Source: Urbifossiella limnaea
Lineage (GTDB): Bacteria > Planctomycetota > Planctomycetia > Gemmatales > Gemmataceae
Direction: 5' to 3'
Assembly (NCBI RefSeq): GCF_007747215.1
Contig: NZ_CP036273.1
Span: 3,332,322-3,396,321 of the forward strand
Length of the DNA: 64,000 bases
Shown here piece after piece: positions 13,511-16,964 of this stretch. Within the stretch, counting starts at the first letter, position 1, and each line of letters begins with the position of its first letter. Position numbers and translations under genes: made by a program. The notes beneath the pieces were generated by a model, which saw only the letters and a list, made by a program, of their open reading frames with translations, had not been told where the DNA came from and searched no databases.

Positions 13511-15232
13511 ATGTGGTCCCGCTCGGCTGCCGCCGCCGGCCTCGTCCTCGGACTGGGTGCGCTGTCCACCGGCCAGTCACCGTCGCCCTACTCCCGGGCG
13601 GTGCCGCCAGACGCCGCGGCGCTGGCCCGCCTCAACCTCCGCGTCGAGTGGGCGCAATTCCTGCCGATCGCCGGCGGCCGCGACACCGTGCAGATGGTGC
13701 AGACGATCGGCGACCAGCTGTTCGTCCAGACGCGGACCGGCCACCTGATCGCCGTGGACGCCCGCACCGGCCGCATCCAGTGGCAGGCGGCTCTGGGCAA
13801 CGGCGGGTACTCGAACGTCTACCCGGTGGCGGCAAACGACCGGTTCGTGTACGTGGCGCACGTCACCCGGGCCTACGCCTTCTACCGCGACACCGGCGTG
13901 CTCGAGTTCACGGCCGAGCTCGGCACCACGCCGGTGGCGGGCCTGTCGGCCGATGCCCGCGGGCTGTACGCGCCGCTGGCCACGCAGCCCGGCGCGGCCG
14001 GCGAGCACCGCGTGCTCGCGCTCGAACTCCCGAACCCGATCGTCATCCCCGACCTGACGAGAGAGAAGGCACCGAAGGCCGGCGAGGCGGTCATCGGCCG
14101 CGCGAACCCGGTCGACCAGCTGACGGACCGCTACCCCGCGCCGGGGGTGTACCGGTCGTCTAACCCCGATCAGTTCGACCGCCCGCCGACCGGGGGCTTC
14201 GAGCAGCCTCGGGCCAGTGGGGGTGGCGGCGGCAGCCGCAGTCCGTCGCTGGCAGCCGTCCCGCGCGTCACGCCGCCGTACACGATCGAGGGCCATCCGA
14301 CCTCGCCGTCGCTGCAGACGGTGCCGTCACTCCGCCAGCCGTACCGGCTCCGCGACGACTCCGGAAAAAACGTGCAGCGCACCCCGTCGATCGGCACCAT
14401 TCCGCCGTCTGTGTCCGCGGCACTGGCCCTGACCGACCTGCGGCCGCAGGGCGTGAAGCCGAAGGTGCGGTGGGAGTACGGGCTGACGACGCGCATCCGC
14501 TTCGCCCCGGTTTTGACGCCGTCGCGGGTGTGGATCGTCACCGATTCCAAGAGCAAGCTCGCCCTCGGCAAGGCCGACCGCGTCGTCGAGGTGGACGGGC
14601 CGATGTGGGAGGAGGTGGCCGCCCCCCCCGGGAGGGCCGGCGTCATCGCCTACGTGCCGCTGTCGGACGGGAGCCTGCTCGCGGTCGATCTGGAGGGCGG
14701 CAACCGCATCAGCGGCGTGAACATCTTGTGGCGGACGAACGTCGGCGGCATCCTGAACCACACCCCGCTAGTGACCGAGGACGCGGTGTTCGCCAGCGGC
14801 GACCACTCGGGCGTAGTGCGAGTGGACCGGAAGACGGGCGCACAGGTGTGGCGGACGGACCGGCAGGCGGACCGGCTGCTGGCGGTGAACCAGGACTTCG
14901 CGTACGTCCGCGACAACCTCGGCAAGCTGCTCGTGTACGACGCGCGCCGGCCGACCGAGGCGAACGGCCGCGCCGCCCCGCTGACCAGCCTCGGCATCCC
15001 GGAGTTCAACATCCCGGTGGTCAACACCGTGTCCGACCGGCTGTTCCTGGCCGCCGACAACGGGCTGATCGTGTGCCTCCGCGACGCCGCCCGCAAGTAC
15101 GAGTCGCCGGTGCGGATGGCCCCGCCAGTCACGGTCGATCCGGTGCCGCGGCAGGCTGCCCCGCCGGCAGGGATGCCGCCGATGGAGGCGATGCCGAAGG
15201 TCGAACCGCCGCCGGCGCCGCCGAAGAACTGA
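13511..15232 (+). CDS. Secreted PQQ-like (BamB-type) beta-propeller repeat protein
   Basis: A 573-residue exported protein with a signal peptide at about residues 1-22. Propeller blades of the PQQ-like repeat kind are visible (GDQLFVQTRTGHLIAVDART, VTEDAVFASGDHSGVVRVDR, KTGAQVWRTD). A Pro/Ser-rich, low-complexity stretch at about 215-300 splits the propeller, and the tail is rich in Pro and Met. No catalytic dehydrogenase residues or CXXCH are evident, so a scaffold or binding role is likelier than an enzyme. Its stop codon overlaps the start of the next gene in TGATG, so translation of a cytoplasmic nucleotidyltransferase is coupled to it, which is an odd partnership. The predicted promoter is at 13447-13475. 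Confidence 0.8.
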   Translation: MWSRSAAAAGLVLGLGALSTGQSPSPYSRAVPPDAAALARLNLRVEWAQFLPIAGGRDTVQMVQTIGDQLFVQTRTGHLIAVDARTGRIQWQAALGNGGYSNVYPVAANDRFVYVAHVTRAYAFYRDTGVLEFTAELGTTPVAGLSADARGLYAPLATQPGAAGEHRVLALELPNPIVIPDLTREKAPKAGEAVIGRANPVDQLTDRYPAPGVYRSSNPDQFDRPPTGGFEQPRASGGGGGSRSPSLAAVPRVTPPYTIEGHPTSPSLQTVPSLRQPYRLRDDSGKNVQRTPSIGTIPPSVSAALALTDLRPQGVKPKVRWEYGLTTRIRFAPVLTPSRVWIVTDSKSKLALGKADRVVEVDGPMWEEVAAPPGRAGVIAYVPLSDGSLLAVDLEGGNRISGVNILWRTNVGGILNHTPLVTEDAVFASGDHSGVVRVDRKTGAQVWRTDRQADRLLAVNQDFAYVRDNLGKLLVYDARRPTEANGRAAPLTSLGIPEFNIPVVNTVSDRLFLAADNGLIVCLRDAARKYESPVRMAPPVTVDPVPRQAAPPAGMPPMEAMPKVEPPPAPPKN

Positions 15233-16176
15233 TGTCCGACCCGCTGCCGCCGTCGTTCCTCCTCCCACCGGGGACACACGTCGTCCTCCGCGCCGACCGC
15301 AAGCTTCCGGGCACCGACGCTACCCGCCCAGCGGGCAGCGTCGCGGTGGTGGTTGAGTCCCCGGCGTCCAACGACCGTCCGTACGTCGTCCGCTTCCTGG
15401 ACGGCGCCACCGCCCGGTTGAAGTTCGGCGAACTCCTCGTCCGCCGCGGCGACCACTCCGTCGAGGCGCCGGCCGCGACGCCGGGGCCGGACGTGTCGCC
15501 GTTCGTGATCTACCGCGTCACGGTGGGCTCCCGCGCGTTCGGCCTCGCCACCGAGACGTCGGACGAAGACCGGCGTGGCGTCTACCTGCCGCCGGCCGAC
15601 TGGCACTGGTCACTGACCCGCCCGCCGGAGCAGGCCGAGACGACGAGTGTTGGCGTGGAGGAAGTCGTCTGGGAGGTGGAGAAGTTCGTCCGGCTGGCGC
15701 TCCAGGCGAACCCGAACATCCTGGAGACGCTCTGGGTTCCTGTGGTGTCGTTCGCCGACGAGACGGGCGAGGAGCTGCGCCGCGTCCGCGGTGCGTTCCT
15801 GTCGCGGCACCTGTACCGCACCTACTCCGGCTACGTACTGTCGCAGTTCGGCCTGATCGAGAAGCGGCACGCGGCCGGCGGCACGTACAAGCCGAAGCAC
15901 GCAATGCACCTGCTGCGGTTGCTCCACAGCGGCATCCACGCCCTGACCACCGGCGACATCCGCGTCGACGTCGGTGAGCACCGAGCGGAGTTGCTGGACG
16001 TTCGCAGTGGCCGGTGGTCCTTCGCCGAGGTGAAGGCCCGGGCTCTCGAGCTGGACCGGTTGTTCCAGGAGGCCTTCGAGCGGACGGCGCTGCCGGAGCG
16101 GCCGGACACCGACGCGGCGAACCGCTTCCTGATCGCGGCACGCCGCCGGCGGGCGGCGGAGGCGTTGAAGGAGTAG
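15232..16176 (+). CDS. RlaP-like DNA polymerase beta superfamily nucleotidyltransferase with N-terminal barrel
   Basis: A 314-residue cytoplasmic protein. Residues about 10-75 look like a small SH3/KOW-type beta barrel (GTHVVLRADRK, RPYVVRFLDGATARLKFGE). The nucleotidyltransferase core follows, with G99-S100 in GSRAFGL and the metal pair D111/D113 in SDEDRRG. The C-terminal helical part has the family mark YKPKHAMHLLRLL, then LPERPD near the end. RlaP ('RNA ligase-associated protein') relatives are predicted NMP transferases linked to RNA repair, but no RNA ligase gene lies nearby. The start ATG overlaps the previous stop (TGATG), and the second paralogue follows after 5 bases. The activity is inferred from the intact motif; the target is unknown. 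Confidence 0.85.
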   Translation: MSDPLPPSFLLPPGTHVVLRADRKLPGTDATRPAGSVAVVVESPASNDRPYVVRFLDGATARLKFGELLVRRGDHSVEAPAATPGPDVSPFVIYRVTVGSRAFGLATETSDEDRRGVYLPPADWHWSLTRPPEQAETTSVGVEEVVWEVEKFVRLALQANPNILETLWVPVVSFADETGEELRRVRGAFLSRHLYRTYSGYVLSQFGLIEKRHAAGGTYKPKHAMHLLRLLHSGIHALTTGDIRVDVGEHRAELLDVRSGRWSFAEVKARALELDRLFQEAFERTALPERPDTDAANRFLIAARRRRAAEALKE

Positions 16177-16181
16177 CGACC

Positions 16182-16964
16182 GTGGCCGACGTCGTTCACA
16201 ACCTCGACCTGCCGGCGCTCGGCCGGTGGGGTACCAGCCGCATCCCCGACGCCCTCTTCCTCACCGTCAGCGGCGCGCACCTGTACGGCTTCCCGTCCGC
16301 CGACAGCGACATCGACCTGCGCGGCGCCTTCCTCGCCCCGCTGCGGCGCGTGGTGGGGTTGCGCCGGCCCGTCGAGACGGTCGAGCCGAAGGGGGAATTC
16401 GACGGCCTGGAGACGGAGGCGGTGGCGCACGAGATCGGCAAGTACTTACGGCTGCTCGCGAAGGACAACGGCTACGTACTGGAGCAGGTGTTCTCGCCGC
16501 TCGTGGCTCACGGGGCGGACTTTCTCGCGCGGCTGCGGCCGGTCGCGGCCCGGTGCGTCACGCGCGGCTGCCACCACCACTACCGCGGGTTCCTCCAGAC
16601 GCAGCTACGCATGCTCGACAAGCAGAACGAGGTGCGTGCCAAGACGCTGCTATACGCCTACCGCGTGGTGTTGACCGGCATCCACCTGCTGGAGACGGGC
16701 GAGGTGCAGGCCCACCTGCCGACGCTGAACGAGCGGTTCGGGCTCGACTACATCCCGGAGTTGATCCGCCGCAAGTCGGCTGCGGAGGTGGGGACCCTGC
16801 CGGGCGAGGACGTGACGTTCCACCGCGCCGAGTTGGCCCGCTGGGAGGCGCGGCTCGACGCGGCGCACGCGACTGGCCAACTACCGGACGCGGCGCCGGC
16901 GGACGCCGTTGACGAGTTCCTGGTAAACCTGCGCCTGGGCGCGAGTCAGGCGGAGCAGACCTGA
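16182..16964 (+). CDS. RlaP-like nucleotidyltransferase, second tandem paralogue
   Basis: A 260-residue paralogue of the previous gene that lacks the N-terminal barrel. The core motif is SGAHLYGFPSADSDIDLRGA, with metal ligands D43 and D45; the small residue after the glycine is alanine (GA) instead of the usual serine. The middle contains NGYVLEQVFSPLV and a helical C-terminal domain. GTG 16182 is the only start that begins just before the core fold, 5 bases after the upstream stop, so the two were probably made as a pair and might form a heterodimer. The last 19 bases overlap the 3' end of the convergent BON-like gene. Its function is as uncertain as that of its neighbour. Confidence 0.82.
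   Translation: MADVVHNLDLPALGRWGTSRIPDALFLTVSGAHLYGFPSADSDIDLRGAFLAPLRRVVGLRRPVETVEPKGEFDGLETEAVAHEIGKYLRLLAKDNGYVLEQVFSPLVAHGADFLARLRPVAARCVTRGCHHHYRGFLQTQLRMLDKQNEVRAKTLLYAYRVVLTGIHLLETGEVQAHLPTLNERFGLDYIPELIRRKSAAEVGTLPGEDVTFHRAELARWEARLDAAHATGQLPDAAPADAVDEFLVNLRLGASQAEQT

Follow-up and report, generated by a model that had tools for sequence, protein, structure and literature searches.

The DNA analysed here, which we call the window, is a stretch of 64,000 nucleotides within the 7.8-Mb single-contig genome of the planctomycete Urbifossiella limnaea. We examined two tandem genes in it, named here RlaP-A and RlaP-B (A and B below), that encode nucleotidyltransferases of the RlaP family and lie directly downstream of a gene for a secreted-looking propeller (Table 1). 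An earlier reading of the letters alone (the original prediction) described two tandem RlaP-like genes with a 5-base spacing and a TGATG overlap with the propeller stop, and the coordinates and junctions agree with it: the propeller stop codon TGA (15230–15232) overlaps the ATG of A (15232–15234), and the TAG of A (16174–16176) is followed by 5 nt and then by the GTG of B at 16182. As set out below, the pair is genuine and widespread, a two-gene form of a family already known.

Table 1. Genes and sequence features of the RlaP pair and its upstream neighbour, in window positions.
Feature	Position	Strand	Description
RlaP-A gene	15232..16176	+	314 aa; N-terminal SH3-like barrel, Pol-beta-type nucleotidyltransferase, helical bundle
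RlaP-B gene	16182..16964	+	260 aa, GTG start; nucleotidyltransferase and helical bundle, without barrel
A, added SH3/KOW/Tudor-like barrel, residues 10–72	15259..15447	+	five model strands; structure matches
A, GSRAFG loop and D111-x-D113 metal pair, residues 99–115	15526..15576	+	alignment of 86 A rows
A, KHxxHxxR helix motif, residues 222–229	15895..15918	+	alignment of 86 A rows
B, SGAHLYG loop and D43-x-D45 metal pair, residues 30–47	16269..16322	+	alignments of 103 and 30 B rows
AAGGAG, possible ribosome-binding site of B, within the end of A	16168..16173	+	read from sequence; 8 nt before GTG
PQQ/BamB-like propeller gene, secreted-looking	13511..15232	+	upstream of A; PF13360 E 7.9e-18; judged a neighbour outside the module

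Both proteins match the RlaP profile PF10127 well above its cut-off of 23 bits (A, 123.1 bits, E 2e-35; B, 142.1 bits, E 3.3e-41), and a PF10127 search of the whole genome found A and B as the sole matches, with no third RlaP. The best phage family is phrog_388 for A (E 2e-43) and phrog_14344 for B (E 1.8e-15). As predicted, both paralogues keep their D-x-D pairs, with D111/D113 of A and D43/D45 of B invariant across the orthologues compared (24 of A, 30 of B). In the larger alignments, G99, S100, D111, and D113 are present in 86 of 86 A rows, as are K222, H226, and R229 of the helix motif (H223 in 85 of 86), while D43 and D45 are present in 102 of 103 B rows with one gap, a count partly built into the search patterns. 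The patterns used to retrieve the 80 named-genome loci were drawn from the region of the catalytic loop of B, which accounts for part of its conservation among them; the 30 B orthologues are less affected by that bias. Position 79 of B is acidic in all 103 rows (87 D, 16 E), and because D43, D45, and this acid are kept, B is likely to be catalytic. The claim that the two proteins have different active-site openings did not survive alignment, which pairs G31-A32-H33-L34-Y35-G36 of B with G99-S100-R101-A102-F103-G104 of A, such that SGAHLYG is the equivalent loop, written with its register shifted by one residue.

Predicted structures of A (predicted local distance difference test score, pLDDT, 85.2; predicted template modelling score, pTM, 0.67) and B (pLDDT 94.5, pTM 0.91) both contain a Pol-beta nucleotidyltransferase and, after it, a helical bundle, with the SH3-like barrel extra in A. 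The model thus supports the SH3/KOW-like barrel proposed for A, which is predicted to form five strands in residues 16–71 (block pLDDT about 80–89) and matches SH3/Tudor/KOW-type structures, e.g., 3fc3_A (Z 8.7 over 54 residues, root-mean-square deviation [rmsd] 1.1).

The pairing of A with B is conserved. In a relatives panel of 99 genomes, this genome included, 43 have any RlaP match, and 40 neighbourhoods were fetched. A and B were called on one stretch at 26 loci, window included; their frames overlap at 17 of these (by 4 nt at 13, by 8 nt at 2, and by 29 nt at 2), and the remainder are separated by 5 nt (3 loci), 70–210 nt (3), or 0.7–2.1 kb (3). Genes in the fetched stretches came from a simple in-house gene caller, so some called starts may be wrong. 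A B-profile scan of named genomes extended the family to at least 586 relatives, and in the best 80 loci, which were the ones analysed, A adjoins B in 68, upstream of it in 65 and downstream in 3 divergent ones, which bears out the paired-gene synteny looked for. According to record titles, such pairs occur in Planctomycetota, Cyanobacteriota, Chloroflexota, Verrucomicrobiota, and Acidobacteriota. The named rows nearest to the window copies point to Gemmataceae as its probable family. Twelve B loci have no adjacent A; of their genomes 11 were searchable, and 6 have a full-length A elsewhere while 5 have weaker RlaP matches only, two of the 5 carrying an RlaP with an intein-like insert. In relative G047, A and B are 2.4 Mb apart. 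No description of a two-gene RlaP pair was found in the literature, a weak negative with the subscription literature mostly outside its reach.

Two further observations were made on the gene pair itself. A family of 120–132-aa proteins stands directly before RlaP-B and after A at four loci (L054:9587-9949, L131:9570-9950, L121:606-995, and L052:8937-9335), with no Pfam match in the three members scanned (L052, L054, and L131). At L040:9836-12293 in G037, RlaP-A is interrupted by a 382-aa transposase-like gene with a weak UPF0236 match.

A and B are two old lineages. Orthologues are 40–83% identical to the window copy of A and 44–81% identical to that of B, and between A and B themselves roughly three in four positions differ. 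A tree of 212 RlaP rows has a branch with support 95 that sets all 109 B rows apart on one side, and 86 of the 90 A-labelled rows form one group (support 98); at L057 the row labelled A is an RlaP of phage type and not strictly an A. Five phage rows fall on the side of A, a placement that is unsure because this was a quick tree with long phage branches. A recent tandem duplication was ruled out by these separate old clades. For A and B of the same locus, distances are strongly correlated (Mantel r 0.907, n = 79), and none of 2000 permutations reached this value, the highest being 0.215; L124 was left out, as were three reversed-order loci, with which n is 82 and r 0.897. Six of the 80 named-genome loci (L098, L099, L102, L120, L162, and L167), judged to be copies of panel loci, were kept in the tree and left out of this correlation and of the neighbour counts below. 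Ratios of nonsynonymous to synonymous substitution rates (dN/dS) were calculated against G001 and came to 0.19 (A), 0.20 (B), and 0.31 (propeller).

At 104 non-redundant loci we counted gene clusters up to six genes away from B, leaving out eight single or distant RlaP loci (L064–L071). A is near B at 89 loci, Hen1 at 15, Pnkp at 13, Thg1 at 6, and a PF09414 RNA ligase with an HD-kinase at 4, two of which (L049 and L055) also have Pnkp; all other clusters occur at 7 or fewer. RNA-repair genes are thus the most frequent neighbours that the pairs share. Cluster identities were checked by profile on representatives, L039 (Hen1_L, PNKP_ligase) and L131 (Thg1, AAA_33 kinase, RNA_ligase, HD-AAA_33, NIF phosphatase, PTH2). 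L126, from the B subclade of the window, carries A, B, an EF-Tu-like gene (by eye), and an unknown gene, followed by members of the ligase and HD-kinase clusters.

Across the 99 genomes, using presence lists compiled by hand from profile searches, B and full Pnkp occur together in 18, B alone in 12, Pnkp alone in 12, and neither in 57 (one-sided Fisher 4e-5). The corresponding counts for B and Hen1 are 19/11/10/59 (2e-6), and for B and the near-universal RtcB, where no association was detectable, 28/2/59/10 (0.23). Full Pnkp is present in 11 of 22 non-planctomycete pair genomes, a count for which there is no matched background rate. In the 16 genomes that have all four genes, distances correlate at r 0.911 for A-B and 0.874 for Hen1-Pnkp, compared with 0.22–0.51 for the four cross-pairs. 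From these loose cross-pair correlations we conclude that A-B is not a fixed part of Pnkp-Hen1, and that the two are repeatedly meeting modules and not one four-gene operon; fixed co-inheritance of A-B with Hen1-Pnkp was found neither in the correlations nor in this genome, where the genes lie 3.3 Mb apart.

Two arrangements at other loci are recorded here. L131:3943-15129 is a dense RNA-repair island with a kinase, Thg1, an RNA ligase, an HD-kinase, a NIF phosphatase, an unknown 306-aa protein, RlaP-A, an unknown 126-aa protein, RlaP-B, an unknown 433-aa protein, PTH2, and, further on, a phosphoesterase. In some planctomycetes an R2K ATP-grasp gene stands between Hen1 and Pnkp or between A and B (L053:9527-10432, checked by profile, and L078, L082, and L087, by membership of the same cluster).

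The original prediction stated that no ligase is present. None was found in the window, but the genome encodes several elsewhere, and in some relatives the pair does have a ligase next to it. Downstream of Hen1 (6638184-6639566) is a full Pnkp (C1:6640057-6642654, 1396 bits), RtcB is at 2993625-2994932, and a PF09414 RNA ligase with its match at 3287685-3288206 (recorded as L201:7653-8714) lies outside the window, about 60 kb from the pair. Because Hen1-Pnkp, RtcB, and this ligase are encoded elsewhere, repair in trans is possible; no Thg1 was found in this genome. The PF09414 ligase adjoins a 275-aa protein that appears by eye to be phosphoesterase-like. The gene in the gap between Hen1 and Pnkp encodes a PDDEXK_3 nuclease-superfamily protein (L074:9616-9999), and the idea that a repair gene had been lost from this gap was rejected, the gap gene being unrelated to the cargo of other loci.

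Phage records match A far more often than B (360 versus 3), and the one match to B in viral contigs is partial and at a contig edge. By annotation, the A-like phage gene has an RNA ligase nearby in L177, a polynucleotide kinase in L175, and Thg1 in L174, and in two of the five phage stretches read there is no ligase, kinase, or Thg1 annotated near the A-like gene. Two stretches, L191:1861-4011 (+) and L192:4192-6339 (+), encode a cyanobacterial phage-type RlaP of about 716 aa with an intein-like insert just before KHxxHxxR; the insert of L191 matches LAGLIDADG_3, and an uninterrupted 361-aa homologue is at L193:5890-6975.

A functional tie of the pair to the propeller, to which the original prediction called it translationally coupled, is unsupported. 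The order propeller then A was found at five loci, either closely related in the A tree or congeneric, and the TGATG overlap occurs in the window only, being absent from all four relatives with propeller and A, where a 53-nt gap (one locus) or an intervening gene (three) separates them. A propeller-RlaP operon as a functional unit was ruled out on these grounds, and we judge the propeller to be a chance neighbour outside the module. The intervening gene at L044:10410-11252 in G047 is Ada-like (AraC and methylguanine methyltransferase domains), and L062 and L127 have a member of the same cluster in that position.

We propose, with a probability of roughly 0.6, that A and B form a co-inherited two-gene RNA-repair module that rebuilds RNA 3′ ends before ligation by enzymes encoded elsewhere. 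A ribotoxin or anticodon nuclease would cut an RNA, most likely a tRNA, and one end would be trimmed; A and B would restore the missing 3′ nucleotide or nucleotides on the cut RNA; and enzymes encoded elsewhere (Pnkp-Hen1, RtcB, or the PF09414 ligase) would heal the ends and seal them. A would be the canonical, phage-like RlaP, whose added barrel may hold RNA, and B a derived partner that adds a different nucleotide or serves as a second subunit; the two may act in sequence or as a heteromer, with labour divided between them. That the pair probably acts on RNA, as the original prediction suggested, is supported by the RNA-repair genes among its neighbours, and because A and B are kept paired across phyla beside different RNA-repair systems, they look like a portable two-part repair tool. 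Its retention across phyla, together with an inheritance independent of the ligases, suggests that restoring nucleotides and sealing are separate modules. A more specific form of the proposal, which we put forward tentatively and with the odds against it, is that A-B is a split RNA 3′-end polymerase, heteromeric or working as a relay, with different nucleotide choices, that works with sealing systems of unrelated kinds (Pnkp-Hen1, a T4-type ligase with HD-kinase, Thg1 cassettes, or ligases in trans) in several phyla.

Several observations weigh against a repair module. In this genome no RNA-repair gene was found next to the pair, most of the 104 B loci are without a nearby ligase cluster, and full Pnkp is missing from 12 of the 30 B genomes. 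Inside the family of the window the B-Pnkp association is weak (10/10/10/31, p 0.045), distances of A and B track those of Hen1 and Pnkp only loosely, and kinship among genomes inflates all of the association statistics. Decay of one copy, which the original prediction set as a point against a joint role, was seen in part: G037 has a broken A, and so apparently does G002, where A is split over two contigs, while B stays intact in both.

Some of these same observations would fit a pair that maintains RNA ends independently of ligases, for example the 3′ ends of tRNA or other RNAs in ordinary growth, with nearness to repair operons being secondary. The B genomes without full Pnkp, the separate inheritance of A-B and Hen1-Pnkp, and the Pnkp debris found next to B in G097 and next to a pair that is intact in G043 all favour this. 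However, RlaP is patchily distributed (43 of 99 genomes), which does not resemble a housekeeping function; the neighbours shared most often include Hen1, Pnkp, Thg1, and ligase clusters; and neither A nor B matches the CCA-adding family in Pfam or NCBIfam at E values up to 1. We consider this explanation unlikely.

A role like that of HalB of the Hailong system or of the MNT antitoxins, in which the pair would synthesise an oligonucleotide or add a nucleoside monophosphate to a protein and so regulate an effector, is more improbable still. The best solved match to the enzyme part of both models is HalB (A, Z 10.8, 172 aligned, rmsd 3.5; B, Z 10.9, 175 aligned, rmsd 3.8), and D21/D23 of HalB coincide with the D-x-D of A and B, judged by aligned start offsets. 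For B, AadA-type adenylyltransferases are a close second, and MNT/HEPN structures match with Z up to 9.8. This fold match supports active nucleotidyl transfer by the modelled proteins and not a Hailong-like role, a shared fold showing no function. Poly-dA adducts made by HalB block HalA (PMC13275509). Against such a role, no cluster besides A is near more than 15 of the 104 B loci, and no constant third gene was found at them (HalA itself was not searched for, and no HEPN profile search was run). PADLOC gave no match to a known defence system.

It is very unlikely that A alone is an RNA nucleotidyltransferase and B a regulatory or structural partner with altered chemistry. In favour of this reading, position 32 of B, opposite the loop Ser of A, is mostly Ala (82 A, 20 S, and 1 gap in 103 orthologue rows, many of them found with a pattern allowing only A or S there), T155 and Y158 of B replace H223 and H226 of A in an alignment by eye, and B is rare in phages; against it, B retains D43, D45, and the acid at 79.

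Among known systems, the split CC-adding and A-adding tRNA nucleotidyltransferases are two related Pol-beta enzymes that share one 3′-end job. They serve as an analogy for A and B only, being of a different family, with no CCA-family match to A or B. Hailong HalB resembles A and B in fold and D-x-D, a similarity and nothing further, which AadA shares in the case of B; it differs in that identity is 12–14% in the structural alignments and no constant partner gene was found for A-B. The phage RlaP-like nucleotidyltransferases of phrog_388 are the best phage family of A, and some phage copies lie near an RNA ligase, kinase, or Thg1, but phages seldom match B. Bacterial Pnkp-Hen1 (TIGR04075, TIGR04074), to which the Pnkp1-Rnl-Hen1 complex (PMC4411300) is related, adjoins A-B at a minority of loci, co-occurs with it, and is present in this genome, but A-B is inherited apart from it.

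RlaP (PF10127) itself is the closest comparison, and its founding paper is reportedly that of Burroughs and Aravind in 2016. The role predicted for it is to restore the lost nucleotides of cut RNA before ligation (PMC7824862). No solved structure relevant to A or B was found in the PDB by sequence, and A-B offers a defined two-protein reagent with which to test the predicted restoration. Like RlaP, A and B keep the catalytic motifs, score far above the family cut-off, and have some relatives near RNA ligases; unlike it, they have no local ligase here and are two old paralogues that have been kept paired, one of them with an SH3-like barrel.

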